This document shows positions 1-13,626 of a stretch of 14,749 nt of DNA, piece by piece (position 1 is the stretch's first letter; each line of letters begins with the position of its first letter). The notes under the pieces are model-generated. The model ran no database searches. It was not told the DNA's origin and saw nothing but the letters and a program-made list of their open reading frames with translations. The DNA is taken from positions 1 to 14,749 of the forward strand of contig PKWK01000150.1 in assembly GCA_003133205.1 (NCBI GenBank), given 5' to 3'. The stretch is from Granulicella sp. (GTDB lineage Bacteria > Acidobacteriota > Terriglobia > Terriglobales > Acidobacteriaceae). Both the position numbers and the translations under genes were made by a program.

Positions 1-504
1 CCGATCGAGCAGGAGGGCACGTATCCGCTCCCCGAAGCGCAGCTCGACCGCTTCCTCATCAAGATCCGCGTGCCCTACCCCACCCTCCCCGACGAGCGCT
101 CCATCCTCGACCGCCATCACGCCAGCACCGAACCCAAGGACCTTGAACTCACCCCGCTCAACCCGGTCGACCCCGCGCTCCTCGCCTCCGCTCGCCGTGA
201 GATCCGAGCCGTCCGCATCGAGCCCGCCCTCTTCGACTACCTGCTCACTATCGTCCGCCGCACCCGCGACTGGCCGGCCCTCGCCCTTGGCGCATCCCCC
301 CGAGCCAGCACCAGCCTAATGCTCGTCGCCAAGGCTCACGCCGCCCGCGACGGCCGCGACTTCCTCATCCCCGACGACGTCAAACTGGCCGCCATCCCCG
401 TCCTCCGCCACCGCCTGGTCTTCCGCCCCGAAGCGGAACTGGAGGGCTTCGACACCGATCGCGTCATCCAGGACATCCTCACCGCAACCGCCCTACCAAA
501 ATGA
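1..504 (+). CDS. MoxR-family AAA+ ATPase, C-terminal part (gene runs off the left edge)
   Basis: The frame is open from base 1, so only the C-terminal 167 or so residues are present. The visible start-like GTG at 70 is internal. The first residues read PIEQEGTYPLPEAQLDRF, the conserved MoxR segment after sensor 1; the AQLDRF stretch carries the arginine region at the subunit interface. GASPRAS (about 275-330) is the sensor-2 motif of the lid domain. Walker A and B lie outside the window. MoxR ATPases are thought to act as chaperones that mature or insert metal cofactors into VWA-type partner proteins. The DUF58 gene 48 bp downstream on the same strand is the classic partner, so the two are probably cotranscribed. 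The specific client is unknown. Confidence 0.93.
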   Translation, partial: PIEQEGTYPLPEAQLDRFLIKIRVPYPTLPDERSILDRHHASTEPKDLELTPLNPVDPALLASARREIRAVRIEPALFDYLLTIVRRTRDWPALALGASPRASTSLMLVAKAHAARDGRDFLIPDDVKLAAIPVLRHRLVFRPEAELEGFDTDRVIQDILTATALPK

Positions 505-552
505 CATTCCCATCGTCAGCGGCAGCCAATAATTAGGACAGGAGATCCCCGA

Positions 553-2004
553 GTGCAGACGCTCATTCCCGAACCCGTCACCGCCGTCGCCCGCCCAAAC
601 GGGCGCTTCGGTCGCGCTCTGGGCTTCGGCCTCACTCCGCGAGCGCTTCTGCTCCTGCTCGCCGGGACGCTCCTCTCTATCCCTGCATTCTTCCACCCGC
701 ACCGCCTGTGGATCATGCTTGCCTGGGACGCCTTGGTCGCCACGCTCATCCTCTTCGACCTCACCCAGCTCCCATCGCCTGACAACCTCACAATCACTCG
801 CCGCTTCATCCACTCGCCCGCGCTTGGCGAGCCAACCGAGATTGTCCACGAGATTCTCCAACAGTCGAACGCCCTCCTCGAAGTCCGCGTCACCGACGAG
901 CTGCACCTCGCGCTCATCGCCTCACCCCAAACTCAAAATATCCTGGCCTACCCCCGCGAACCGGCGAAGACCGTGCAATCATGCTATCCAAGTCGCCGCG
1001 GCGACTTCCGCTTAGGCAAAATCTTCCTCCGCTACCGTGGCGCTCTCCGCCTGGTCGAACGCTGGGCCGTTGCCAACACTGAACAGCAAGTTCGCGTCTT
1101 TCCCGCCACCGAGCAGAGCACCGGCAAAACCGCCTTCTACCTAATGCGCGCACGCCAGATTGAACTCCAGAAGCGCCGCCTGCGGCTGCGTGGGACCGGC
1201 CGCGAGTTCGAGAGCCTACGCGACTACCAACCAGGCGACGAGATGCGCAACATCTCGTGGACCGCGACCGCACGCCGCGCCCACCTCATCACCCGCGAGT
1301 TCACCACCGAGCGTTCGCAGAAGGTGTGGATTGTGCTCGACGCGGGCCGGCTCTCGCGCACCGCCTTCGAGATGCGCCGCAGTCAGCCCGAGGTACGCGG
1401 AGAGGTCGAGCAGGACGCCGCCGAGCAGCATCTGCTCACGGTCACACAGCTCGATCAGGCCGCGTCAGCCGCCGTCATGTTGGCGCAGGTGATCGCCGGC
1501 TCGGGCGACAAGTTTGCCCTGATGACCTACGGGCGCAAGGTCCAGCAGCAGCTTCTACCAGGCGCAGGCCCCAGCCATCTGCGCCTATTGATCGACCAGC
1601 TCTCGCAGGTGCGCTCCGAGGCCTCCGAGGCTGACCACCTCCACGCCGTCGCGCGCCTCAAAAACCTGCAGCGCCGCCGAGGCCTTGTCGTCTGGGTGAC
1701 CGAGATGGCCGAATCCGCCGGTCGTCCCGAAGTTGTCGCCGCGGCCGCCGAGCTTATCCGCCGCCACTTGGTTGTGCTCGTCCTTCTCACCCACCCCGAA
1801 CTCGACAGGCTCGCCACACGCGAGCCTCGCACGGTCGACGAGATGTTCGCCTCAACCGCCGCCCAGGAGATGCTCGAACGCCGCCGTGCCACCGTAGCTC
1901 AGCTTCGTCAGCAGGGTGTCCTGGTCATCGAAACCTCGCCCGCCGAGGTCGGTGCGGCCGCCATTACCAAGTATCTCGAAGTCAAAGCCCGGGGCCTTCT
2001 CTAG
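553..2004 (+). CDS. DUF58 domain protein, membrane-anchored VWA-like partner of MoxR
   Basis: A 483-aa protein starting at GTG 553, preceded by AGGACAGGAG (536-545) at good spacing. Two hydrophobic stretches at residues about 30-48 and 52-70 would form an N-terminal hairpin anchor. The DUF58 hallmark REFESLRDYQPGD (217-229) followed by the NISWTATARR stretch (233-242) is clear. The strand ending VLDAGRLS (261-268) resembles the degenerate MIDAS start of the VWA-like fold in this family. Length is normal. It follows the MoxR gene directly, and the pair is conserved across many phyla with a suspected role in envelope or stress functions; no substrate is established. Its TAG stop lies in a CTAG palindrome that also supplies the stop of the convergent SpoIIM-family gene. 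Confidence 0.92.
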   Translation: MQTLIPEPVTAVARPNGRFGRALGFGLTPRALLLLLAGTLLSIPAFFHPHRLWIMLAWDALVATLILFDLTQLPSPDNLTITRRFIHSPALGEPTEIVHEILQQSNALLEVRVTDELHLALIASPQTQNILAYPREPAKTVQSCYPSRRGDFRLGKIFLRYRGALRLVERWAVANTEQQVRVFPATEQSTGKTAFYLMRARQIELQKRRLRLRGTGREFESLRDYQPGDEMRNISWTATARRAHLITREFTTERSQKVWIVLDAGRLSRTAFEMRRSQPEVRGEVEQDAAEQHLLTVTQLDQAASAAVMLAQVIAGSGDKFALMTYGRKVQQQLLPGAGPSHLRLLIDQLSQVRSEASEADHLHAVARLKNLQRRRGLVVWVTEMAESAGRPEVVAAAAELIRRHLVVLVLLTHPELDRLATREPRTVDEMFASTAAQEMLERRRATVAQLRQQGVLVIETSPAEVGAAAITKYLEVKARGLL

Positions 2005-4328: not shown

Positions 4329-5087
4329 CTATGCCAGCAGCACCTCGATGCCTCTGCTGCGCAGCAACTCTACATATTCAGGAGCAAGCTCGCTGTCTGA
4401 AACGACAGTGTCGGCGGCTTCCAGCGGTGCAACGGGGATCATTCCGCTTCGTCCGAACTTGCTATGGTCGGCAACGATGATTACCCGGTTGGCAATCTCA
4501 ATCATCTTCTGCTCCGACCCGACGACCAGCGTGTTGTTGTTGCTGAATCCCGCATCGGAAACGCTGCCGATGCCCATGATGAGTACGTCGGCACGAATCA
4601 GGTTCAGCATCTGTTCACACAGCGGGCCGAGCATCACACGGATGCGTGGGTCAAGATACCCGCCCGTCAACGTCAGTTCTATGTTTCGCCTCGCTTCGAG
4701 GGTCTCCGCGATGGGCAGGGAATTCGTGACAATATGCAGCGACCTCGACGCCAATTCTCCGGCTACTGCCGCCACCGTCGAGCCGCCATCCAGAATAACG
4801 GTCTGGCCGTCTTCAATCAGGCCGGCTGTCAGGCGGGCAATGCGGCTCTTCTCATCACTGAAGCGCCCACTCTCTACGGTGAAGTCGAACGCTTCGCTCG
4901 CATGGGGCTGCACTGGAACCGCACCGCCGTACACCCTCTTGAGGACGTTTTGCTCTTCCAGATCGTCCAGGTCCCGGCGAACGCTGGACTCAGACGCATC
5001 CAACTCACGGCAAAGAGTCTCCAGGTCAAGGAAATCCTTGGAGTCCAACATCTGACGGATTCTCAGTTGCCGTTCAGCAGCTTTCAT
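4329..5087 (-). CDS. DeoR-family transcriptional regulator of the BMC operon
   Basis: A 252-aa protein from ATG 5087; an in-frame ATG at 5111 would add eight residues, and neither has a strong ribosome-binding site. The N-terminal winged helix-turn-helix is clear (residues about 6-56): LDLETLCRELDASESSVRRD followed by the wing KRVYGGAV. The C-terminal sensor domain of the DeoR_C type contains ILDGGSTVAAVA (98-109), the loop that usually binds a sugar phosphate, and TNSLPIAETL. Members commonly repress sugar catabolic operons and release DNA on binding a phosphorylated intermediate. The gene follows the aldolase gene after 77 bp on the same strand and is likely the last gene of the operon. A phosphorylated substrate or product of the aldolase is the natural candidate effector, but this is inference. 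Confidence 0.92.
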   Translation of the reverse strand: MKAAERQLRIRQMLDSKDFLDLETLCRELDASESSVRRDLDDLEEQNVLKRVYGGAVPVQPHASEAFDFTVESGRFSDEKSRIARLTAGLIEDGQTVILDGGSTVAAVAGELASRSLHIVTNSLPIAETLEARRNIELTLTGGYLDPRIRVMLGPLCEQMLNLIRADVLIMGIGSVSDAGFSNNNTLVVGSEQKMIEIANRVIIVADHSKFGRSGMIPVAPLEAADTVVSDSELAPEYVELLRSRGIEVLLA

Positions 5088-5164
5088 CGTGGAGTGGCAG
5101 AGTCCTGCCATCTGTAAGATGGGTCAGATTCCCTCAAGGCGTTTCATCCTATTGTCGAAGTCGT

Positions 5165-6304
5165 TCACTGCTTTCCCATCGCTCCCATTACCGCGTCGGT
5201 CACTGTCTTCACCAACCGCTCAATCTCAGGCGCGTCGGCCGTGCCGATACTGACGCCATCTCGCGCGCAGGGAAGTAGTGCAATGGAAGTGTTTGTCTCG
5301 AGATCGGACAATTGGCATTCCTTCATTCCCGAAGCGTCGAACCGGGCGTCGGGCAGACCGATGCTCTTCTTGATGTCCAGCAGAGCGGCGGTGTGCTTTT
5401 CCGAAATCTGCGAGATTGGAACCCCTAGTTGCGACGCCAGCATCAGCGTCCAGCAATACGTGTCGACCACCTCCGCGTACCACTCGGCGTGGGTAACCGT
5501 GTCCGCCCAGCAGATGATGCCATGGTTGGCGAGCAGCACAGTGTTGTGCTGCTTTACATACGGCAGCACGGTCTCTGCGAAGGCCTTCGTGCCCGGCGTC
5601 TCATACGGCGAGACCGCCACCTTGCCCACGAAGACCTCGAACTCAGGGATCACCCGGCTTGGCGGAACGCGTCCCGTGATCGCATACGCGGTTGCATGGG
5701 GTGGATGACAATGCACTGCACCTTTCGCTTCCGGCACAGCCTTGTAGATCTCGAGGTGCAGAAGAATCTCGCTGGTGCGGGGCCTCTTGCCGGCAACCTG
5801 CTTGCCATCCAGATCGACCATGCACAGATCATCGGGCGTCAGGTCGAACTTGCTCACCAGGGTCGGCGTGCAGATCACTTCGTTCGGCCCGATGCGATAG
5901 GAAATGTTGCCGCCGTTGCCGTCGACATACTGGCGGTTCCATAGCTTTTTCCCAACCGCACATATCTCTATCTTGACCGCCTCCGCCTCAGGCGTGGTGA
6001 ACAGGCGCGGATCGGCTGCGCTGCGCGTCTGTGGCGTACTCTTCGCGGGGCCGCTGTAGCCGCCTGCGACATTGATGATGCGCGCCGTTGCGCCGCCGTT
6101 GTTGGTCCCGCTTTGCGCCGGAACCACGCCCGTCGAGGCCCCGCCTATCACCAGCTCAATACCGTTCTGTCGCAGAAAATCGCGGGCCGAAGGAGTAACA
6201 ACACATCGCTCAGCCACGCGCACATGCGTCACACCGGCTGTGACTGCGCCTTGCACATCGCGCATCGTCAGTACATTCTGGCCGAAAATATCCATGTTCT
6301 TCAC
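5165..6304 (-). CDS. Class II (FucA-like) aldolase with BMC-type N-terminal extension; signature enzyme
   Basis: A 379-aa protein. GTG 6304 is preferred over ATG 6295 because GAGGTG lies 5 bases before it; the GTG overlaps the TGA of the upstream BMC-P gene. Residues 105-300 are a class II aldolase/adducin domain. E179 (TSE), H198 and H200 (HCH) and H261 (ANHG) show the same spacing as E73, H92, H94 and H155 of E. coli fuculose-1-phosphate aldolase, that is, the catalytic acid and zinc ligands. The first 55 residues form a separate domain with VVTPSARDFLRQNGIELV, a motif seen near the termini of other BMC proteins, followed by a Gly/Ala/Ser/Thr-rich linker (55-95). The last 20 residues (APEIERLVKTVTDAVMGAMG) look like an encapsulation peptide. 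Inferred reaction: fuculose- or rhamnulose-1-phosphate to DHAP and L-lactaldehyde. FucA itself is about 215 aa, so both ends are extensions. Confidence 0.92.
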   Translation of the reverse strand: MKNMDIFGQNVLTMRDVQGAVTAGVTHVRVAERCVVTPSARDFLRQNGIELVIGGASTGVVPAQSGTNNGGATARIINVAGGYSGPAKSTPQTRSAADPRLFTTPEAEAVKIEICAVGKKLWNRQYVDGNGGNISYRIGPNEVICTPTLVSKFDLTPDDLCMVDLDGKQVAGKRPRTSEILLHLEIYKAVPEAKGAVHCHPPHATAYAITGRVPPSRVIPEFEVFVGKVAVSPYETPGTKAFAETVLPYVKQHNTVLLANHGIICWADTVTHAEWYAEVVDTYCWTLMLASQLGVPISQISEKHTAALLDIKKSIGLPDARFDASGMKECQLSDLETNTSIALLPCARDGVSIGTADAPEIERLVKTVTDAVMGAMGKQ

Positions 6305-6618
6305 TTCAACACCTCAGATTCTTGAAATTGTTTATTGCCGGTTGTGATGGAGTCGACAATCAATGTGCAATACGCGTCCACCGGAACTGAACTCGGCCAG
6401 AAGGGATTTGCGGCTTCACGGCCTTCCGTAAAAGCCACCATCTGACCCTTTGCCGCGCCAAGCGCATCCACGGCAACCAACGATTTGCCGCCGCCCAAAC
6501 CATTCTTCGCAACCAGGTTGGTCATCGTAACTGGTTCCAGTACGACCAGTGTCTTCCCGAGTAACTCCGGGACGGCCGGACTGAGTGTGACATGTCCGCG
6601 AACGATGCCCAGCCTCAT
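6301..6618 (-). CDS. BMC-P pentameric shell vertex protein (EutN/CcmL family)
   Basis: A 105-aa protein with the EutN/CcmL fold signature: N-terminal MRLGIVRGHVTLS, the GKTLVVLEPV strand, SLVAVDALGAAKGQMVAFTEG in the centre, and the C-terminal strand VDAYCTLIVDSI. BMC-P proteins form pentamers that cap the vertices of the shell. The ATG at 6618 follows CGGGAGGAG at good spacing and overlaps the TGA of the preceding BMC-P gene by 4 bp; its own TGA overlaps the GTG of the aldolase gene. It is thus translationally coupled on both sides. One of three different BMC-P paralogues in the locus. Confidence 0.93.
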   Translation of the reverse strand: MRLGIVRGHVTLSPAVPELLGKTLVVLEPVTMTNLVAKNGLGGGKSLVAVDALGAAKGQMVAFTEGREAANPFWPSSVPVDAYCTLIVDSITTGNKQFQESEVLK

Positions 6619-6905
6619 GCGCTCCTCCCGTTGCTCCGCTGCGGTATCTGTACCTGATCCACAATGCCGACAACCACCATGCGTGCCGGCGTTGTGTTGC
6701 CATATCGTTCCCGCGCAATGTCGCCGTCGGTGGAGACCAACACGGTCGATCCGTTCGCAGCGCCAATCCAGTCGATAAGCACCAGTGGTTCCGGGCCTGT
6801 GCTGCCATCGGCTTCAAGCCGCTGGGCCACCAGGAAGCGGCAGCCGTCCAAAGTCGCGTGCTTTGCCGCCGGAACTACTGTGCCGTCGATGCGAGCGAGA
6901 AACAT
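6615..6905 (-). CDS. BMC-P pentameric shell vertex protein, divergent paralogue
   Basis: A 96-aa EutN/CcmL-type protein. It begins MFLARIDGTVVPAAKH, where VV and the following lysine match the family start (usually a GxVVAT-like strand and turn). It continues PLVLIDWIGAANGSTVLVSTDGD and ends MVVVGIVDQVQIP. The usual VDxVGAG loop is here IDWIGAANG, making this the most divergent of the three pentamer proteins. The start lies 2 bp after the stop of the aldehyde dehydrogenase gene, with GAGGAT inside the end of that gene as ribosome-binding site, and the stop overlaps the next BMC-P start. Role: vertex capping, possibly of a distinct vertex population or for enzyme attachment. Confidence 0.9.
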   Translation of the reverse strand: MFLARIDGTVVPAAKHATLDGCRFLVAQRLEADGSTGPEPLVLIDWIGAANGSTVLVSTDGDIARERYGNTTPARMVVVGIVDQVQIPQRSNGRSA

Positions 6906-6907
6906 GG

Positions 6908-8368
6908 CTAGATGATCCTCAAGGCATTGCCGATCGTGAGCTGCCGCTCGCGGGTAAACGTAAGCGGCGTAGTAATGCCCTCGCCGGTGGGAGTCGCAAT
7001 GCTGTGGCTCAGATATCCGGGTCCGCCAAACCCCAGCGAGGCCAACGACGAAGCGTTATTGACGAAGATCGTCGTGTCCATGGCGCGCGCCATGCGAGTT
7101 ACGTTGTCAACATTCTTGGAATGAATGATGGCAGTGTGCCGGTAGCCGTGTTCTGCCTTCACTGCCGCCGCGATACCCTCGTCGACATCCTTCACGCGCA
7201 CAATCGGAATGAACGGCATCATCTGCTCTTCCACAACGAAGGCATGGTCCTCGTTGGTCTCTCCGAACAGAATTTGCGTGCTTTCGGGAACGCTGACGCC
7301 GGCAGCCCGTGCCAGCACCGCAACGTCTTTGCCCACGAGTTCCTTCCTCACATGTGCGCGAGCGCAGCCCTTGCCATCGCCCTCGAAGGTAAAGGCAGCC
7401 TTCGTCAATCGGTCAATTGCCGCCTTGTCCAATTCAAAGCCGCCAGCGTTGTGCATCGCCTGCATGAACGCCCGGAATACGGATGCGACGACAAACACCT
7501 CTTTCTCGCCGATGCAGAGCAGGTTATTGTCGAATGCTCCACCCAGGATGATGTCCTTCGCCGCGGCCGCAAGATCGGCTGTCTCATCCACCACAACGGG
7601 CGGATTACCTGGCCCTGCTGCAATTACTCGCTTTCCATACTTGCCCGCAGCCTTCACCACAACCGGGCCGCCGGTCACGCACAGCAATGCGATCTTTGGA
7701 TGCTGGAATATCTGGTCTGCGGCTTCAATACTTGGTTCGAGGATCGTGGTGAGCACGTTGGCCACACCACACTCACGTTCAATTTCGCGGTTGAACAGTT
7801 GCAGCGCATACTGCGCCACTCGCTTCGCCGATGGGTGCGGCGCAAATACCGCGGTGTTCCCCGCAGCCAGAATGTTGATGGCATTCGCAGCCATCGTCGG
7901 CACCGAGTGCGTCACCGGAAGCACCATGCCAATAGCGCCCCATGGCGCACGCTCGATAATGCATAAGCCGGACTTGTCGCTACGAGCATCGCTGCGCATG
8001 GCCTCAACGCCAAGCACGTACTGCATATTCTTCAGCTTCTGAATCTTGTGGTCGAGCCGGCCCACCTTGCTCTCTTCCAACTCCATGCGGCCCAGCTCTT
8101 CGCTACGGTCGATGCAGATCCGTCGAACGATGGAGATCATGCGCCCGCGCTCTTCAAGGCTCATCTCTCCAACCTTCTTCTGTGCCGCATGTGCCGCGTT
8201 GGCAGCCTCATCCACCGTCATGAAGACGCCATCACGCACGGCGCTACTGGTCGGCGTAGCAAATCTGCTGGCCGGCGCGGACGCTGGTTGCGCCGATTGC
8301 AACTGGATACGGAGTCTCGCGACAACCTCCCTCGCAATATCCGCAATCACCTGCTCTTGGTTTGTCAT
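6908..8368 (-). CDS. CoA-acylating aldehyde dehydrogenase of the microcompartment (EutE/PduP type)
   Basis: A 486-aa protein, normal for the family, with AGGAGCAGGA just before ATG 8368. Residues 2-24 (EQVIADIAREVVARLRIQL) form an amphipathic helix typical of an encapsulation peptide, followed by an Ala/Pro/Ser-rich linker to about residue 45. The dehydrogenase domain contains ERAPWGAIGMVLPVTHSVPT (cofactor side), AAGNTAVFAPHPSA, TGGPVVVKAAG and AAGPGNPPVVVDETAD. C285 in FDNNLLCIGEKEV is the catalytic nucleophile. It converts an aldehyde to acyl-CoA using NAD+ and CoA in the lumen; with the aldolase next door the likely substrate is L-lactaldehyde, giving lactyl-CoA. It sits between BMC-P genes, so enzyme and vertex proteins are cotranscribed. 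Confidence 0.95.
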   Translation of the reverse strand: MTNQEQVIADIAREVVARLRIQLQSAQPASAPASRFATPTSSAVRDGVFMTVDEAANAAHAAQKKVGEMSLEERGRMISIVRRICIDRSEELGRMELEESKVGRLDHKIQKLKNMQYVLGVEAMRSDARSDKSGLCIIERAPWGAIGMVLPVTHSVPTMAANAINILAAGNTAVFAPHPSAKRVAQYALQLFNREIERECGVANVLTTILEPSIEAADQIFQHPKIALLCVTGGPVVVKAAGKYGKRVIAAGPGNPPVVVDETADLAAAAKDIILGGAFDNNLLCIGEKEVFVVASVFRAFMQAMHNAGGFELDKAAIDRLTKAAFTFEGDGKGCARAHVRKELVGKDVAVLARAAGVSVPESTQILFGETNEDHAFVVEEQMMPFIPIVRVKDVDEGIAAAVKAEHGYRHTAIIHSKNVDNVTRMARAMDTTIFVNNASSLASLGFGGPGYLSHSIATPTGEGITTPLTFTRERQLTIGNALRII

Positions 8369-8408
8369 TCCTGCTCCTGATCTGTCAATCCCACTGCAAG
8401 CCAGTCAT

Positions 8409-8705
8409 CTACGGCTTCTCCAACACTGTGCCGCCGACCTCGATAACATCCACGATGCCGACAATCACGGCATCAACCGGTGCATCCTTTGTCGCCGGCG
8501 TCAGGCGGGCCGAGCTTCCTTGCGTGAACAACACACACTCGCCGACTCCCGCGCCAACGCTGTCAACGGCCACCACGGAGCTCCCCGAAATCTCAAGCTT
8601 GCTCTCTCTGCTGATGTACGGCTGGATCAGCAGCAGCTTCATTCCGCGGAACTTCGCGTTCTTCTGCGTGGAAACAACGTTGCCAATTACCTTTGCTATA
8701 AACAT
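8409..8705 (-). CDS. BMC-P pentameric shell vertex protein (EutN/CcmL family)
   Basis: A 98-aa protein close to the canonical EutN/CcmL pattern: MFIAKVIGNVVSTQKNAKFR, then KLLLIQPYI, then VAVDSVGAGVGECVLFTQGS, the most conserved loop of the family, and VDAVIVGIVDVIEV at the end. It forms pentamers at shell vertices. Its ATG at 8705 follows a good GAGGTGA. It lies 45 bp after the last BMC-H gene and 40 bp before the aldehyde dehydrogenase gene. Of the three BMC-P proteins here this one matches the family consensus best, so it may be the structural default vertex. Confidence 0.94.
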   Translation of the reverse strand: MFIAKVIGNVVSTQKNAKFRGMKLLLIQPYISRESKLEISGSSVVAVDSVGAGVGECVLFTQGSSARLTPATKDAPVDAVIVGIVDVIEVGGTVLEKP

Positions 8706-8750
8706 GCCGGCTCACCTCATGCGCCTGGGCGGATCAACTTCCGCTCGCAG

Positions 8751-9023
8751 CTATTTCGGCAATACCGACGTAAGGCTGCCATGCGGCCGCGCAATCACAT
8801 GCACGCTCTGCACTTCGCCAACTGCCTTTGCGGCTGCCGCTCCCGCATCCACTGCAGCGCGAACACTGCCCACATCGCCCTGAACAAACACCGAGCACAA
8901 TCCGCTGCCGATCTTGTTCCATCCGACGAACTCGACGCTTGCCGCCTTCAGCATTGCGTCGGTGGCCTGCACAAGTGCGACCAGGCCCTTCGTCTCAATC
9001 ATTCCAATCGCTTCATTGGCCAT
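8751..9023 (-). CDS. BMC-H hexameric shell protein
   Basis: A 90-aa single BMC-domain protein (PduA/EutM/CsoS1 family). [27 protein letters not shown] is the typical first half, and [23 protein letters not shown] with VHVIARPH the second. The loop KIGSGL lines the central pore of the hexamer; here the residue after it is a cysteine (GSGLCSV), unlike its two paralogues. Six subunits form a tile of the shell facets. AGGAG lies 8 bases before ATG 9023. Third of three tandem BMC-H genes. Confidence 0.96.
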
Positions 9024-9071
9024 TTCAATTCTCCTGATTCCAATTGCCTTGTTATCCAGTTGTCGTGACGC

Positions 9072-9341
9072 TTACTTCAACATGCTTTCGACCAGCGCAT
9101 CGTGCGGGCGCGCAATCACATGCGACGACACCAGTTCGCCCACTGACTTCGCTGCGGCTGCTCCGGCATCCACGGCAGCGCGCACGCTGCCCACATCGCC
9201 ACGAACGATCGCGGTTACAAAGCCGCCGCCAATCTGCACGGTCTTCACGAGTTCCACGCTGGCCGCCTTCACCATCGCATCACAAGCCTCGACCAGTCCG
9301 ACGAGGCCCTTCGTTTCGATCAATCCAATTGCTTCACTCAT
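9072..9341 (-). CDS. BMC-H hexameric shell protein
   Basis: An 89-aa single BMC-domain protein: [50 protein letters not shown] and [10 protein letters not shown]. The pore loop is VQIGGGFV, with Gly in place of the Ser of its neighbours, which would widen the pore or change its chemistry. AGAGGAGA precedes ATG 9341. Protein and DNA are so close to the downstream BMC-H gene, for example in the segment encoding [18 protein letters not shown], that a local duplication is likely. Middle gene of the BMC-H trio; facet tile of the shell. Confidence 0.96.
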
Positions 9342-9380
9342 CTTGTCTCCTCTGCTCGATAAAGCAGTTCTTGCCAGCGC

Positions 9381-9683
9381 CTAAGCGACGGCTTTCTTTA
9401 CTGCGGCCTTCTTGTCCTGTTGAACAAAGGAGGGCAATTCATCGTGGGGGCGCGAGATCACCTGTACGGCGACCACCTTGCCAATCCGAGCCGCCGCTTC
9501 GGCGCCAGCATCGGTTGAGGCCTTCACCGCAGCCACGTCGCCTTCGACGAACGCGGTCACCAGTCCAGAACCAACCGTCTGCCAGCCAATAAAAGTTACA
9601 TTTGCCGACTTCAGCATCGCGTCGGTCGCCTCGAACAGCGCGACCAAGCCTGTCGTTTCAATCATTCCAAGCGCTTGTTTCAT
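9381..9683 (-). CDS. BMC-H hexameric shell protein with basic C-terminal tail
   Basis: A 100-aa single BMC-domain protein: QALGMIETTGLVALFEATDAMLKSANV, pore loop TVGSGLV, EGDVAAVKASTDAGAEAAARIG and VISRPHDELPSF. It is about ten residues longer than its two paralogues because of a Lys/Ala-rich tail (DKKAAVKKAVA). Such tails can bind cargo or neighbouring tiles. AGAGAGGA precedes ATG 9683. As the first BMC-H gene after the pduL-like gene it may be the most highly expressed facet protein, but that is a guess from order only. Confidence 0.95.
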   Translation of the reverse strand: MKQALGMIETTGLVALFEATDAMLKSANVTFIGWQTVGSGLVTAFVEGDVAAVKASTDAGAEAAARIGKVVAVQVISRPHDELPSFVQQDKKAAVKKAVA

Positions 9684-9720
9684 CGAGTCCTCTCTTGTTC
9701 CTTCCGTTACCTAAAATGTC

Positions 9721-10413
9721 TTACTTGATCAGTTCAATATCTTTGGTCAGGTGCAAGCCGCACGCATTCGCCTCGTCGGTGTCCATGTGGATGTTGAGCC
9801 GCGAGGTTGGGTCGATACGGACATGCACGTTGTTGAATGTGACACCCGCAGCGCCGCCGACGCGGAGCTTCATCATGTCGCCCTGTTTGACCCTGAAGTA
9901 TGTCGCCTCTTCGGGATTCATGTGCACGTGGATCGCGGCTCGAATGACGCCTTCCTTCAACTGGATCGAGCCCTTGGGTCCCATGATGATCGCGCCCGGC
10001 GATCCCGCGAGATTGCCCGACAGCCGCACCGGAATGTCGTCGAACCCCAGCATGATCGCATCGGTAAACGCCAGTTCGATCTGCGACTGTTTGCGCATCG
10101 GCCCGAGGATGCGAAGGTTTGAGATCAGGCGGCTGCGCGGCCCAATGATCGTCACTTTCTCGTTCGCCGCAAAGTTGCCGGCCTGGTACAGATCCTTGTA
10201 GACCGTCAACTCCGTGCCCGGTCCAAACAGTACGTCCATGTCCTCACGGCAGATGTGCATATGCCGCGCCGAGGCCATCACCGTCAGCGTCGGACCTGTT
10301 CCGTTGCCTTTGCGTCCCAGGTACTCCAACGCAACCTGGCGAACGATCTGTTCGACAAAAGTCCTATCGATCGTTTCGGCCGAATTCGAAAATGCTGAGC
10401 TTCCACATCCCAT
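9721..10413 (-). CDS. pduL: PduL-type phosphate acyltransferase (phosphotransacylase)
   Basis: A 230-aa protein. It swaps CoA for phosphate on an acyl-CoA, regenerating CoA inside the compartment. The two PduL domains show their zinc ligands: SARHMHI (H51, H53) and HVHMNPEEA (H162, H164), plus H209 in LNIHMDTDEANA, the family's closing motif. Residues about 12-35 (AETIDRTFVEQIVRQVALEY) form an N-terminal amphipathic helix as in encapsulated PduL proteins. Reaction inferred here: lactyl-CoA plus phosphate to lactyl-phosphate. Start ATG 10413 has only a weak AGG-type site; the gene lies 21 bp after the kinase gene, so translation may depend on it. The first residues, MGCGSS, are unusual but not a lipobox in context. 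Confidence 0.95.
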   Translation of the reverse strand: MGCGSSAFSNSAETIDRTFVEQIVRQVALEYLGRKGNGTGPTLTVMASARHMHICREDMDVLFGPGTELTVYKDLYQAGNFAANEKVTIIGPRSRLISNLRILGPMRKQSQIELAFTDAIMLGFDDIPVRLSGNLAGSPGAIIMGPKGSIQLKEGVIRAAIHVHMNPEEATYFRVKQGDMMKLRVGGAAGVTFNNVHVRIDPTSRLNIHMDTDEANACGLHLTKDIELIK

Positions 10414-10434
10414 AGGTAGACCTGACTTACTGAA

Positions 10435-11592
10435 CTAGGTTGATTGACACACTCTTGCCCGCTCTACGACGCCCACGGTTTCGCGGGCAACGATGATCTC
10501 TTCATCCGCCGGAATAATGAGCACCTTCACGCGAGATCCCTCAGTTGAAATGGGTCCCGCCTTCCGCGCTGTCCGGTTTACCGCCTCATCCAGTTCCACT
10601 CCGAAGCCCGCGAGGTTCCTGCACACAGCGCTCCGTATATCCGCGCTGTTTTCGCCGATGCCACCCGAAAACGTGATCACATCCAGCCCGCCAAGTTCCA
10701 GCATGAACGCGCCGACATAATGGCGAATCGCCCGCACAAACACGTCCAGTGCAAGCTGCGACCGCTTATCGCCGGCAGCGGCAGCCTCATCCAGGTCGCG
10801 AATATCGCCGCTTCGGCCGCTGATTCCAGCCAGCCCGGATTGGCTCCCCAGGATGCGCGCCATCTCGTCTGCATCCACGCCGAGCTTCTTCATCATGTAC
10901 AGCACCGCAAACGCATCGATGTCGCCGACACGATTGTTTTGCGGCAGACCCGACTGCGGGGAAGTCCCAAAGCTTGTATCGATCGCAACACCATCGCGGA
11001 ACGCTGCAATGCTGGAGCTGCCCCCAAGGTGGCACGAGATATGCCGCAAGTCCGGCTGTCCCATCAACGCCCGAATCCGTTCGCTGGCCGATCGATGACT
11101 CGCGCCATGAAACCCATACCGCCGAATGCCAAACTCCGTGCGCCACTCGTACGGCACCGCGTAGGTCGTAGCCGCTTCGTCGAGAGGTGCGTAGGGAGTC
11201 GTCTCAAACACCGCAACCAGGGGCACGCCCGGCAGTTCATGGCGAAACGCTCGCATCGCCGCAACGTAAGGAGGATTGTGTGCGGGGGCGAAGAAGGCGA
11301 AATCATCCATCGCCGCAAATAAATTCTCATCCACCAGGCGCGGTCCGGGCATCGGCCCCGGATGCACCACCTTGAACCCGACAGCCTCGACTTCCGACAG
11401 GCTCTTTAGAGCTTTGCCCGGGCCCACCACATCGTCAATGCATTTGCGGATCGCTGCCGGATAGTCGGCGCACTCGCCGCCCGGCTGCCCAATCCGCTCC
11501 ACTCGGCCTTCCCCCAGCACCGACTCCTGCGGCATGTCCAGCACGCGGTACTTGAAGGACGTGCTGCCGATGTTGGGTATCAGACATTTCAT
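10435..11592 (-). CDS. Acetate-kinase homologue with altered active site (acyl-phosphate to acid and ATP)
   Basis: A 385-aa protein from ATG 11592. A frame extension upstream to 11655 runs through the promoter region and adds no family sequence. The acetate/butyrate-kinase fold is clear: PNIGSTSFKY start, RRYGFHGASHR with the conserved histidine (H162), NNRVGDID with the catalytic arginine (R221), FSGGIGEN and PADEEIIVARET near the end. Several positions differ from the acetate kinase consensus: GHRVVHGG is GFKVVHPG (Arg91 equivalent becomes K74), VAVFDTAFHQT is VAVFETTPYAP (catalytic Asp148 equivalent becomes E130), and HLGNG is HLGGS. It is the first gene of the BMC operon. It probably acts outside or at the shell, producing ATP from the acyl-phosphate made by PduL, likely lactyl-phosphate rather than acetyl-phosphate. 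Confidence 0.9.
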   Translation of the reverse strand: MKCLIPNIGSTSFKYRVLDMPQESVLGEGRVERIGQPGGECADYPAAIRKCIDDVVGPGKALKSLSEVEAVGFKVVHPGPMPGPRLVDENLFAAMDDFAFFAPAHNPPYVAAMRAFRHELPGVPLVAVFETTPYAPLDEAATTYAVPYEWRTEFGIRRYGFHGASHRSASERIRALMGQPDLRHISCHLGGSSSIAAFRDGVAIDTSFGTSPQSGLPQNNRVGDIDAFAVLYMMKKLGVDADEMARILGSQSGLAGISGRSGDIRDLDEAAAAGDKRSQLALDVFVRAIRHYVGAFMLELGGLDVITFSGGIGENSADIRSAVCRNLAGFGVELDEAVNRTARKAGPISTEGSRVKVLIIPADEEIIVARETVGVVERARVCQST

Positions 11593-11611
11593 TGATAGAT
11601 AATGAGCGTTC

Positions 11612-11640
11612 TTGACTGCAACTAGACGATATCGTATATT
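11612..11640 (+). promoter_or_regulatory. Predicted sigma70-type promoter for the pduS-pduT arm
   Basis: TTGACT (11612-11617) and TATATT (11635-11640) are separated by exactly 17 bp, each one mismatch from consensus. The start of transcription would fall near 11647, giving a leader of about 43 nt with GAGGA at 11676-11680 before ATG 11690. Confidence 0.7.
11626..11635. promoter_or_regulatory. Perfect 10-bp palindrome, candidate operator
   Basis: ACGATATCGT reads the same on both strands and lies between the two opposed -35 boxes, touching both predicted -10 elements. Looser inverted arms surround it: TTGACTGCAAC (11612-11622) against GTTGTCAGAGTCAA (11642-11655). A dimeric repressor bound here would block both directions. 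The DeoR-type regulator of the locus is the obvious candidate, but no known consensus was matched. Confidence 0.5.
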
Positions 11641-11655
11641 CGTTGTCAGAGTCAA
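11626..11655 (-). promoter_or_regulatory. Predicted promoter for the minus-strand BMC operon, overlapping the divergent one
   Basis: On the minus strand TTGACT (11655-11650) is followed after 18 bp by TATCGT (11631-11626), a weaker -10 with four of six matches. The start of transcription would be near 11619, about 27 nt before ATG 11592. It overlaps the plus-strand promoter, so polymerases would compete. Confidence 0.5.
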
Positions 11656-11689
11656 TCAGATTATTGAGAGACTTTGAGGACTGTTGGGA

Positions 11690-13039
11690 ATGACGCCAGA
11701 AATGGGTGTGCGAGTTGGTGCTGCCCGAGGCGGCTCGCAACAGATGACTATCCCTCGAGTAGCCGAACTCGGCATCGTCGGGGCTGGCGGCGGCGGATTT
11801 CCCACTGCGACGAAGCTTGGAACGCGCGTCCCTCTAGTCATCGCCAATGCGGCCGAGTGTGAGCCCTTGCTGCACAAGGACAAGGAACTCCTCTATCACC
11901 TCTCCGAGCCATTTTTGCGTGGCATGGTTGCTGCCATGGAGATGGTTGGTGCGCCGGAAGGCGTCATTGGGATCAAAGAGAAGTATCACGACACCATCGC
12001 CGCACTGGAGCAGCAGGCTCCGAAAGGCATCCGCGTAGCGCCGCTGCCCGATGTCTACCCCGCAGGAGATGAATTCATCCTCGTCCACATGGTCACCGGC
12101 CGCGTGATCCCGCCCGGCGGTCTTCCGAAGGACGTGGACGCGCTCGTCTGCAATGTAGAAACCCTCATGAACATCGGCCTGGACCAGCCAGTGACACACA
12201 AATACCTCACCGTGGCCGGCGCCGTCCGCACGCCTGTCACTTTGCGTGTCCCAATCGGCGTCTCTATCGGCGAGGTCATCGCCGCTGCTGGCGGAGCCAC
12301 AGTCGACGACTTCAGCGTGCTCCTCGGCGGAGTGATGATGGCCAAGCCCGCTGCCGGTCTCGACGTCCCTGTCACCAAAACCACCGGCGGCATAGTAGTC
12401 CTCCCGTCCTCGCACAAGTTGATCGAGCGCCACGCCGCAAAGTGGCCGCAGATCGCGCGCATCGGACGCTCGGCCTGTGACCAGTGCCGCTTCTGCACCG
12501 AGTTTTGTCCGCGCTATCTGCTCGGCCATCCCATCCAGCCGCATCGCGCCATGCAGTCGCTTGGATTCAGCACCAGCCCAGCCGCGATCATCGCCGGCAC
12601 GCTCTATTGCTGCGAGTGCAACCTCTGCACGATGTACGCATGTCCTGAGGACCTCGATCCCAAGACTGTCTGCGCGGAGTCCAAACCGGCGGCGCGCGAG
12701 AACGGGCTCTTCTTCACCGGGACGCCGGAGTCCGTCATCCCCAATCCGATGGGAGAGTTCCGCCGCGTGCCCATGGCCCGTCTGATCTCGCGGCTGGGCC
12801 TGTCCGAGTTCAGCAACGTCGGCCCACTCTCGCACCACGAATTCTCACCCGCCCGCGTTTTACTGCCGTTGAAGCAGCACGCCGGCCTCCCCTCCGTGCC
12901 CGTCGTAAAAACCGGCGATCGAGTCCGCGCAGGCGACGTGCTGGCCGTCCCCCAGGAAGGCAAACTCGGCGCGCGGATCCATGCCAGCATCGCCGGCGTG
13001 GCTCGGCTGACCCACGATGCGGTGGTGCTGGATGCATAG
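11690..13039 (+). CDS. pduS: PduS-like RnfC-family flavin/Fe-S oxidoreductase
   Basis: A 449-aa protein from ATG 11690, with GAGGA 9 bases upstream; TTG 11684 and the ATG at 11744 are alternatives. The N-terminal part has GIVGAGGGGFPTATKL (28-43), the glycine-rich flavin/NADH-binding region shared with RnfC and NuoF, and NAAECEPLLHKDK. Two cluster motifs follow: CDQCRFCTEFCP (C263, C266, C269, C273) and CCECNLCTMYACP (from C307), predicted to hold two [4Fe-4S] clusters. The C-terminus (VVKTGDRVRAGDVLA to the end) is a barrel-sandwich domain. In Pdu compartments PduS reduces cobalamin and docks to PduT. No B12 enzyme is present here, so a role in moving electrons from lumen NADH is more likely. 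It is divergent from the main operon. Confidence 0.92.
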   Translation: MTPEMGVRVGAARGGSQQMTIPRVAELGIVGAGGGGFPTATKLGTRVPLVIANAAECEPLLHKDKELLYHLSEPFLRGMVAAMEMVGAPEGVIGIKEKYHDTIAALEQQAPKGIRVAPLPDVYPAGDEFILVHMVTGRVIPPGGLPKDVDALVCNVETLMNIGLDQPVTHKYLTVAGAVRTPVTLRVPIGVSIGEVIAAAGGATVDDFSVLLGGVMMAKPAAGLDVPVTKTTGGIVVLPSSHKLIERHAAKWPQIARIGRSACDQCRFCTEFCPRYLLGHPIQPHRAMQSLGFSTSPAAIIAGTLYCCECNLCTMYACPEDLDPKTVCAESKPAARENGLFFTGTPESVIPNPMGEFRRVPMARLISRLGLSEFSNVGPLSHHEFSPARVLLPLKQHAGLPSVPVVKTGDRVRAGDVLAVPQEGKLGARIHASIAGVARLTHDAVVLDA

Positions 13040-13065
13040 GTTCGTGCTCGGAAGGAGCCAATATC

Positions 13066-13626
13066 GTGGCTGAAATTCAATCTATAGGTCTCATCGAACT
13101 TTCCAGCGTCGCGACCGGCTACCAGGTCGAGGACGTAATGATCAAGGCCGCGTCCATCAAGATTTTGCTGGCCCGCAGCATCTGCTCGGGAAAGTTCCTC
13201 ATTGCCATCTCGGGCGACGTTGCATCCGTGACCACAGCCGTTGAAGCTGGCGGTGTCGCGGCAGGCGCCTCGCTAATCGAACGGCGTCAGATCGCGCGCG
13301 TGCATCCTTCCGTCCTGCAGGCCATCTCCATGTCGGTCGAGATCAATCCCAGGCAGTTACGCTCGATCGGTGTCATCGAGACCTTCTCCGCAGCCAGCAT
13401 CATCGATGCCGCGGATGCAGCCGTCAAATCGGCAAATGTGACGCTGCTCAAGGTCCATCTCGCCATGGCTCTTGGCGGCAAAGGATTCGTCATGATGGCG
13501 GGCGATGTATCCAGCGTTCAGGCAGCCGTCGAGGCAGGATCGCGAGCCGCCGCCGAAGAGGGCATGCTCGTCGCCCGTGGGGTCATCCCCGCCCCCTCCG
13601 AAGAGCTCTTCCGCGACTACATCTGA
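13066..13626 (+). CDS. pduT: PduT-like tandem-domain BMC-T shell protein with Fe-S pore cysteine
   Basis: A 186-aa protein from GTG 13066, with GAAGGAG 8 bases upstream and only 26 bp after the pduS-like gene. Two BMC domains are fused: residues about 5-90 (IGLIELSSVATGYQVEDVMIKAA, GDVASVTTAVEAG) and about 98-182 (SIGVIETFSAASIIDAADAAVKSANV, GDVSSVQAAVEAG). Three copies make a pseudohexamer. C40 in RSICSGKFL matches C38 of PduT (TICPGKFL), which in the trimer holds a [4Fe-4S] cluster in the central pore. RVHPSVLQAI and VIPAPSEELFRDYI also match PduT. It probably docks PduS and conducts electrons across the shell. Length is normal for PduT. Confidence 0.94.
   Translation: MAEIQSIGLIELSSVATGYQVEDVMIKAASIKILLARSICSGKFLIAISGDVASVTTAVEAGGVAAGASLIERRQIARVHPSVLQAISMSVEINPRQLRSIGVIETFSAASIIDAADAAVKSANVTLLKVHLAMALGGKGFVMMAGDVSSVQAAVEAGSRAAAEEGMLVARGVIPAPSEELFRDYI

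Follow-up and report, generated by a model that had tools for sequence, protein, structure and literature searches.

An acidobacterial microcompartment locus of the PVM type carries PduS and PduT, a candidate electron exit in place of lactate dehydrogenase

We analyzed a 14,749-nucleotide stretch of DNA from Granulicella sp. (Acidobacteriota; contig PKWK01000150.1 of assembly GCA_003133205.1), hereafter the window, for the bacterial microcompartment (BMC) locus that it carries. Open reading frame (ORF) and profile searches placed this locus in one block, positions 4329 to 13626, organized as two divergent gene runs (Table 1). Read outward from the kinase, the minus-strand run encodes an AckA-family kinase, the phosphotransacylase PduL, three BMC-H proteins, a BMC-P protein, an aldehyde dehydrogenase (AldDH), two further BMC-P proteins, a class II aldolase, and a DeoR regulator; the BMC-H to BMC-P ratio is 3:3. 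The plus-strand run encodes PduS and then PduT, a pair that we abbreviate PduST. The best start of the kinase gene is the ATG at 11592, and that of pduS is the ATG at either 11690 or 11744. All genes named in an initial annotation of this DNA were recovered by Pfam or NCBIfam profile matches, and its statements that unrelated genes bound the locus on both sides and that no B12-dependent or radical enzyme lies within it also held. The left flank consists of MoxR, DUF58, SpoIIM, and RDD genes and an ORF with tetratricopeptide (TPR) repeats, the right flank is an ORF without a Pfam match, and these flanking genes look unrelated to the compartment. None of the 19 window ORFs scanned matched a diol dehydratase, a glycyl-radical enzyme, or an alcohol dehydrogenase, and no lactate/malate dehydrogenase, 2-Hacid_dh protein, or RpiB-like isomerase was found among them.

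Table 1. Features of the microcompartment locus, in window coordinates
Feature	Position	Strand	Evidence and remarks
DeoR-family transcriptional regulator	4329..5111	-	Pfam DeoRC 6e-44, HTH_DeoR 9e-13; position kept in many relatives
Class II aldolase, extra N-terminal domain and C-terminal amphipathic helix (putative encapsulation peptide)	5165..6304	-	Aldolase_II 2.5e-45
BMC-P pentamer protein 1	6301..6618	-	EutN_CcmL 5.8e-16
BMC-P pentamer protein 2	6615..6905	-	EutN_CcmL 2.2e-19
CoA-acylating AldDH, N-terminal encapsulation-peptide-like helix	6908..8368	-	NCBIfam PRK15398 571 bits, cut-off 403
BMC-P pentamer protein 3	8409..8705	-	EutN_CcmL 2.1e-30
BMC-H hexamer protein 1	8751..9023	-	BMC 1.3e-26
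BMC-H hexamer protein 2	9072..9341	-	BMC 1.1e-27
BMC-H hexamer protein 3	9381..9683	-	BMC 1.2e-25
PduL phosphotransacylase, N-terminal encapsulation-peptide-like helix	9721..10413	-	PTAC 1.8e-66; 231 bits, cut-off 209
AckA-family acyl kinase, Lys/Glu active-site signature	10435..11592	-	Acetate_kinase 1.4e-91; 294.6 bits, cut-off 293.4
Divergent promoter-like element	11612..11655	both	Pattern search
PduS-type flavin/Fe-S protein	11690..13039 (alternative start 11744)	+	Complex1_51K, SLBB, Fer4_17, RnfC_N
PduT-type BMC-T shell protein, pore cysteine (CSGKF)	13066..13626	+	Best solved relative PduT 3n79

Alignment of the core enzymes with solved structures revealed the following active-site features. 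In the aldolase, the catalytic Glu and the H-x-H and His metal ligands line up with those of solved fuculose-phosphate aldolases, its nearest solved relatives; we take the Glu to be the catalytic residue and the His residues to be the metal ligands. This enzyme matches several class II subfamilies of NCBIfam, none close to its cut-off. It also carries an extra N-terminal domain (approximately residues 8 to 53, with a TPSARDFL motif) that lacks a Pfam match and that matches planctomycete ORF X with an hhalign probability of 97.7. As judged by the motif, this domain is fused to the aldolase in 9 of 9 Acidobacteriota and 10 of 23 Verrucomicrobiota rows of the tree described below, whereas in several Planctomycetota loci it forms a separate ORF between two BMC-P genes. 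The AldDH aligns over its full length, including the active-site Cys, with 5jfl; its best solved relatives are 5jfl and 4c3s (named aldehyde dehydrogenase), both of which presumably stem from microcompartments. PduL keeps both H-x-H motifs in an alignment to 5cuo. In the kinase, Lys and Glu replace the Arg (GHRVVH) and the Asp (VFDT) of the solved acetate kinase 2iir, places that we assume to be Arg91 and Asp148 of acetate kinase. Both replacements are shared by all 54 kinases that entered the tree (the window and L005 to L208), and this signature may mark a lactate kinase or another acyl kinase. Short amphipathic helices with variable linkers were seen by eye in 13 loci at the N termini of AldDH and PduL and at the C terminus of the aldolase (the PduL helix was visible in 12 of 13 rows, L196 being the one where it was not); these helices resemble encapsulation peptides and are putative targeting signals.

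PduS of the window has Complex1_51K, SLBB, Fer4_17, and RnfC_N domains by Pfam, together with a Gly-rich motif and two 4Fe-4S motifs. Of 73 full-length PduS proteins, 70 matched simple patterns for both Fe-S motifs and 71 matched the one for the Gly motif; the Fe-S misses are L160 to L162, and the pattern proved too strict for the two sequences inspected. PduT is a tandem-BMC protein that is nearest PduT and scores below the NCBIfam PduT cut-off (125.5 versus 250.3). It aligns to the solved PduT 3n79, in which the pore cysteine position is a Ser, presumably an engineered Cys mutant. The pore motif C-P/S/A-G-K/R/S-Y/F was present in 72 of 72 PduT homologues (whole proteins), and PduT adjoins PduS in 68 of 72 judgeable cases. 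The same four Pfam domains have been described for PduS (PMC6325248). In the near full relative L005, transhydrogenase-like genes lie directly 3' of pduT, from position 12206 (the first by Pfam, the second by eye).

To which compartment type does this locus belong? We used a tree of AldDH, PduL, kinase, and aldolase with 54 rows, built by a quick method with SH-aLRT support only and rooted at the midpoint; at least three core genes were required of a locus, which excluded L097, L104, L109, L190, and L200, other types are represented only by L160 and L161, and no GRM, SPU, or EUT proteins were included. The window groups with L005 (support 100) inside an Acidobacteriota clade of nine rows (100), and this clade is joined with the loci of Verrucomicrobiota that belong to the PVM type (the fucose/rhamnose compartment of planctomycetes and verrucomicrobia) and with the acidobacterial L157 (33 rows, 100). 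Planctomycete PVM loci, with the order DeoR-PduL-H-H-kinase-P-AldDH-P-X-P-aldolase, adjoin this Acidobacteriota/Verrucomicrobiota group, and L160 and L161 fall outside on a long branch. On the basis of gene set, gene order, and phylogeny, we assign the shell and enzyme core to PVM. The locus is therefore a PVM variant and not an unrelated hybrid. A second Acidobacteriota locus type, with the order PduS-PduT-PduL-AldDH-BMC-H-aldolase, was seen in L160 to L162; the kinase comes next in L160 and L161, and a BMC-P triplet is present in L161 and L162.

These data bear on the remaining claims of the initial annotation. Its view of a self-contained aldolase, AldDH, PduL, and kinase compartment with PduS and PduT agrees with the profile matches, gene set, and gene order, and the fit of its enzymes to the fucose/rhamnose PVM type is upheld by the tree. 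The words "hybrid" and "distinct locus type" went too far, as the shell and enzyme core are those of PVM. The exact locus was not found in the catalogue descriptions consulted. A pairing of PduS with a class II aldolase has already been recorded for GRM5 and for the "SPU-like" loci of Latescibacteria (PMC4207490). The acidobacterial aldolase-type loci that it offered as relatives are, in the case of the ACI type, a different thing, as evidenced by the ACI-like L163 of the acidobacterial genome G335, which scores only 146 bits against the window aldolase and has a 2-Hacid_dh gene. Beyond that annotation, we found PduST in Planctomycetota and Verrucomicrobiota with PVM loci as well, in many cases as a pair in a satellite position.

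As PVM loci are described (PMC4207490, PMC8857213), they share with the window the class II aldolase, AldDH, PduL, AckA-type kinase, DeoR regulator, BMC-P/BMC-H shell, and gene order. They differ in having a lactate/malate dehydrogenase as the NAD+-recycling enzyme, none of which was found in the window locus, although this enzyme is missing also from many PVM loci and genomes themselves. The window differs further in carrying PduS and PduT inside the locus, in its equal numbers of BMC-H and BMC-P genes, in the fused aldolase N-domain (a separate ORF in several Planctomycetota loci), and in its acidobacterial host, as published hosts are "almost exclusively" planctomycetes or verrucomicrobia. 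The PVM-like loci of Axen 2014, compared here by description only, have a class II aldolase and, in most cases, DeoR; their hosts include an acidobacterium, "Ca. Solibacter usitatus," only one has a core alcohol dehydrogenase (none was found in the window), and they are described as possible fragments of a GRM5-related locus that by gene content group beside PVM and GRM5 (PMC4207490). Rhamnose/fucose metabolosomes in Acidobacteriota have also been noted (cited in PMC11596606).

Other described types share parts of this gene set. The clostridial fucose/rhamnose type GRM5 has a class II aldolase, DeoR, and both PduS and PduT (57 of 57 loci, PMC6325248), along with a glycyl-radical diol dehydratase and an alcohol dehydrogenase, neither of which was found in the window. 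SPU-like loci of Latescibacteria (Axen 2014) share AldDH, PduL, PduS, a class II aldolase, and an acetate-kinase homologue, and they carry an RpiB-like protein (PMC4207490); no such protein was found in the window. The ACI type (Acidobacteria, mainly subdivisions 4 and 6; Sutter 2021) is reported to share the class II aldolase with a C-terminal encapsulation peptide and the BMC-P triplet, and to keep a hydroxyacid dehydrogenase within the locus while its AldDH gene lies in a satellite; we rejected membership in ACI, as the window AldDH lies within the locus and no 2-Hacid_dh was found. PDU has a B12-dependent diol dehydratase, again not found in the window. In the isethionate compartment of Bilophila and the ethanolamine compartment of Listeria, PduS/PduT or a PduT-like protein has been proposed to export electrons (PMC8667426, PMC8547011), but those compartments use radical or B12 enzymes, and the PVM setting is what the window adds. 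No description of PduST together with PVM loci was found in the literature searched, which also included PMC8217296 and PMC8156839; supplementary catalogue tables may hold one.

Homologues were gathered by one PduS scan of genome contigs, which gave 71 loci. At least one of the kinase, PduL, AldDH, and aldolase genes lies in the same stretch in 44 of these, and 41 of the 44 carry an acidobacterial label. The loci nearest the window come from metagenome-assembled genomes labeled Acidobacteria or Granulicella. All four core enzymes were present in 28 of 42 Acidobacteriota stretches examined, several of the others being short or cut contigs, and a search for lactate dehydrogenase (LDH) of the PVM type (E 1e-5) gave no match within any of these 28 stretches. 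Comparison of 13 genes with five relatives revealed nonsynonymous divergence (dN) well below synonymous divergence (dS) for every comparable gene; two dS values were not computable, six genes are absent from L001, and the H1 and H2 genes of L001 seem to be non-orthologous copies. Against the four nearest relatives, dN was 0.10 to 0.11 and dS 0.88 to 1.04 for PduS, and dN was 0.05 to 0.07 and dS 0.74 to 1.25 for PduT. The locus genes are thus under purifying selection, and the constraint on PduS and PduT equals that on the enzymes. The locus is not a chance arrangement, given that dozens of records show the same genes in the same order and that dN is well below dS. One contig labeled Opitutia (L063, genome G028) carries an Acidobacteriaceae-like copy of the locus, which is probably a binning error or contamination and was excluded from the Verrucomicrobiota count.

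The other 27 loci of the 71 showed PduS without an adjacent core enzyme. An aldolase search (E 1e-15) in 30 chosen genomes, 21 of them with a PduS lacking an adjacent core enzyme, matched in 29, the genome without a match being G028. Seventeen aldolase regions from such genomes (L111 apart) comprised seven multi-gene PVM loci, three PVM-like ends cut by the contig, two with an aldolase and two BMC-P genes, and five without a shell gene. Aldolases without a nearby PVM locus were left out of the comparison (those of G235, G265, and G424, that is L154 to L156, which have no close shell genes; L106 and L107, with the aldolase and two BMC-P genes only; and L108, L110, and L112 to L114, without shell genes). 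We also searched for aldolase and PduS in same-sized draws from three phyla. The Planctomycetota sample had the aldolase in 15 and PduS in 5 of 199 genomes; three of the five PduS were in aldolase-positive genomes, and the other two were the most distant PduS. In the Verrucomicrobiota sample (aldolase in 43 and PduS in 6 of 194), five of six PduS were in aldolase-positive genomes and the sixth was in G028, the probable contaminant; in three of these genomes the PduST pair is part of the PVM locus, and in two it stands apart. The Acidobacteriota sample had the aldolase in 11 and PduS in 30 of 199 genomes, with six having both, so that acidobacterial PduS mostly has other partners. Our data reveal PduST as a variable part of PVM compartments: the pair either belongs to the locus or lies far away from it in a genome that has one.

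We then compared the occurrence of PduST with that of PVM-type LDH, which is well separated from other lactate and malate dehydrogenases by score (at least 419 versus at most 239 bits in the chosen genomes; at least 322 versus at most 177 in Verrucomicrobiota). Genome-wide, it was found in 1 of 22 genomes with PduST versus 10 of 11 without; these genomes were hand-chosen for a fully or partly visible PVM locus or for a strong aldolase match, and they include G117 and G135, which are not in the tree. The LDH gene lies away from the aldolase in five of the PduST-negative genomes (G054, G117, G135, G167, and G224). With Acidobacteriota included, PVM-type LDH was missing in 24 of 27 PduST-positive PVM genomes searched. 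Among the 51 tree rows for which both traits are known, LDH was present in 3 of 24 with PduST versus 19 of 27 without (Fisher 4.6e-5). A wider definition, admitting a second lactate/malate-type dehydrogenase and adopted after the loci had been seen, brings the latter count to 23 of 27 (Fisher 1.7e-7). Another lactate/malate dehydrogenase adjoins the aldolase by Pfam in the PVM-LDH-negative Verrucomicrobiota loci L189, L192, and L193, and in L191 the contig end truncates this gene, leaving its start; L189, L192, and L193 also have a zinc alcohol dehydrogenase that begins with a targeting-like helix and neighboring FGGY-kinase and CCG-domain genes (both by Pfam on L189).

A 50-row PduS tree gave a history different from that of the core. 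PduS from Verrucomicrobiota PVM genomes forms a 10-row group (support 98) apart from the PVM-associated PduS of Acidobacteriota and Planctomycetota, and deltaproteobacterial PVM PduS groups with Desulfoluna and Desulfogranum (100); the branch uniting Acidobacteriota and Planctomycetota PVM PduS had support of only 84. Thus, at least two supported lineages of PduS have contributed to PVM compartments. Because these lineages are split while Acidobacteriota and Verrucomicrobiota group together in the core-enzyme tree, PduST was not simply inherited with the core, and its uptake more than once argues for a use.

What might that use be? We lean toward reading the locus as a PVM-type metabolosome in which PduS and PduT serve as the electron exit in place of LDH, a reading to which we give somewhat better than an even chance. 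The class II aldolase would cleave a deoxy-sugar 1-phosphate to dihydroxyacetone phosphate and a short aldehyde, most likely lactaldehyde. As predicted from their families, the encapsulated AldDH would convert the aldehyde to acyl-CoA with formation of NADH, PduL would form the acyl-phosphate and thereby recycle CoA, and ATP and the acid would come from the AckA-type kinase. PduS on the lumen side would reoxidize NADH through its flavin and two 4Fe-4S clusters, in place of the lactate/malate dehydrogenase of PVM, and its electrons would pass to PduT in the shell, by way of the pore cluster, and on to a cytosolic or respiratory acceptor. We regard this predicted mechanism as likely, and the substrate as less settled. 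That PduS/PduT export electrons in the absence of an alcohol dehydrogenase has already been proposed for Bilophila (PMC8667426), and electron movement across the shell by this pair is treated as an open question in both PMC6325248 and PMC8667426, where the pair accompanies B12 or radical chemistry that might equally explain it. What appears to be new here is the PVM setting, the export idea itself being already in print for other compartments. More broadly, PduS-PduT could be a plug-in electron exit that PVM compartments have gained repeatedly, in the locus or as a satellite, replacing LDH or working beside it and wiring an internally balanced compartment to the electron transport of the cell; we offer this generalization tentatively, at a little below an even chance. 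If it is true, electron export would be the sole role of the pair, because no B12 or radical enzyme is encoded in the locus.

Several results weigh against the metabolosome reading that we favor. An independent-pairs test yielded seven pairs, of which none changed the same way and two to four changed in opposite ways, and was not significant (p 0.125 to 0.5), so that the trend for PduST and LDH to swap, strong in the raw counts, is weak when relatedness is taken into account. A prediction set beforehand for Verrucomicrobiota, that PduS-positive genomes would lack LDH and that most PduS-negative ones would carry it, failed in two of five of the former (G486 and G525 have LDH), and LDH was found in only 12 of 38 PduS-negative Verrucomicrobiota genomes, many of the rest having weak aldolase matches. 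Aquisphaera (G020) has both PduST and LDH, no dehydrogenase was seen in the PduST-negative rows L187, L188, and L194, and another such row, L152, has only a distant zinc-alcohol-dehydrogenase-like ORF (101 bits). We therefore rejected strict exclusion of PduST and LDH, which is nearly true in the chosen Planctomycetota and Acidobacteriota (exceptions G020 and G215) and refuted by Verrucomicrobiota. The published potentials (−150 mV for the PduS flavin and +99 mV for the PduT cluster) would suit export from NADH, yet the direction in this locus is only predicted. Lastly, rhamnose isomerase RhaA, found in 11 of 27 PduST-positive PVM genomes, gave no match in the seven genomes nearest the window (G001 to G006 and G399, all Acidobacteriota), other rhamnose isomerase families being outside the search.

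The missing RhaA makes rhamnose via this enzyme unlikely in the clade of the window, and we dropped rhamnose as a proven substrate. It also favors an unlikely but substantial alternative in which the compartment and its electron exit are the same and another substrate is used, for example, 5-deoxyribulose-1-phosphate yielding acetaldehyde or another aldehyde. This alternative would agree with an aldolase that is near no class II subfamily cut-off and with the variable sugar genes beside the locus (an FGGY kinase and transketolase in L012; a 2-keto-3-deoxy-6-phosphogluconate [KDPG] aldolase and PfkB in L030), neighbors that we rejected as a substrate clue since they differ between genomes. It is opposed by the nearest solved relatives of the aldolase, which are fuculose-phosphate aldolases, and by published PVM compartments with the same core, which are characterized as using fucose and rhamnose.

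Two further alternatives assign PduS a different role. PduS might be a lumenal reductase, for instance of lactaldehyde to 1,2-propanediol, with PduT only importing electrons or being structural; the reductase role has been suggested for the PduS of Clostridium phytofermentans and Roseburia inulinivorans in GRM5 (PMC3557285). We regard it as improbable here, as the scanned ORFs include no diol dehydratase or glycyl-radical enzyme that would use 1,2-propanediol and the flavin/NADH and Fe-S domains of PduS are unlike an alcohol dehydrogenase. Still less probable, in our estimate, is that PduS and PduT belong, as leftovers or as working parts, to a compartment with a B12 or radical enzyme whose genes lie at another place in the genome. 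PduS does act as a cobalamin reductase in Pdu according to published work, and proteins of some kind resembling pyruvate formate-lyase (PFL) occur in 7 of 27 PduST-positive PVM genomes, three of them acidobacterial (G002, G014, and G290). However, the other 20 had no PFL-like match, and a relic is disfavored by the purifying selection on both genes, their conserved adjacency, and their recruitment from separate PduS lineages. Diol dehydratase (PF02286) was found in 0 of 27 of these genomes, a zero that proves little because 14 control genomes were equally empty.

In many soil and peat Acidobacteriota, PduST is thus found in a sugar-aldehyde compartment without B12 or radical chemistry in the locus. 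Such a locus may offer a clean setting for asking how electrons leave compartments, as well as shell parts for building wired ones, and the partial swapping of PduST with LDH among relatives provides natural matched pairs for testing electron export.

The intergenic region between the two gene runs holds a promoter-like element in which TTGACT-17-TATATT (plus strand, toward pduS) and TTGACT-18-TATCGT (minus strand, toward the kinase operon) overlap head to head. This divergent pattern occurs once in the window, versus 0.01 expected. Taken as a whole, a promoter scan gave 3 sites versus 3.5 expected, no excess over chance, so only the conserved divergent element is reported. The looser pattern TTGAC-N-GTCAA was present in 15 of 35 loci, and in none of L007 to L022, versus 0.17 expected in shuffles, an excess that is inflated because the loci are related to each other. 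The 8-mer AGAGTCAA was present in 26 of 34 loci. It is plausible from these patterns that the enzymes and the electron module are under a shared control point.

GC content per 1,000 bases is 0.57 to 0.65 in the locus and 0.54 to 0.66 across the window, the locus ends show no sharp break, and no tRNA was found in the window. Genes for MoxR, DUF58, or both are neighbors of the PVM locus in the window (70 to 2004) and in several planctomycete genomes (L142, L143, L146, L148, and L149), with no match in the stretches of other Acidobacteriota loci. In L154, a lone aldolase with a terminal targeting-like helix (6179 to 7144) lies next to a nicotinamidase-like gene (by eye) and looks like a remnant of the locus; L008 (Pfam Isochorismatase), L010, L014, and L021 have a gene of the same kind at the side of a full locus.

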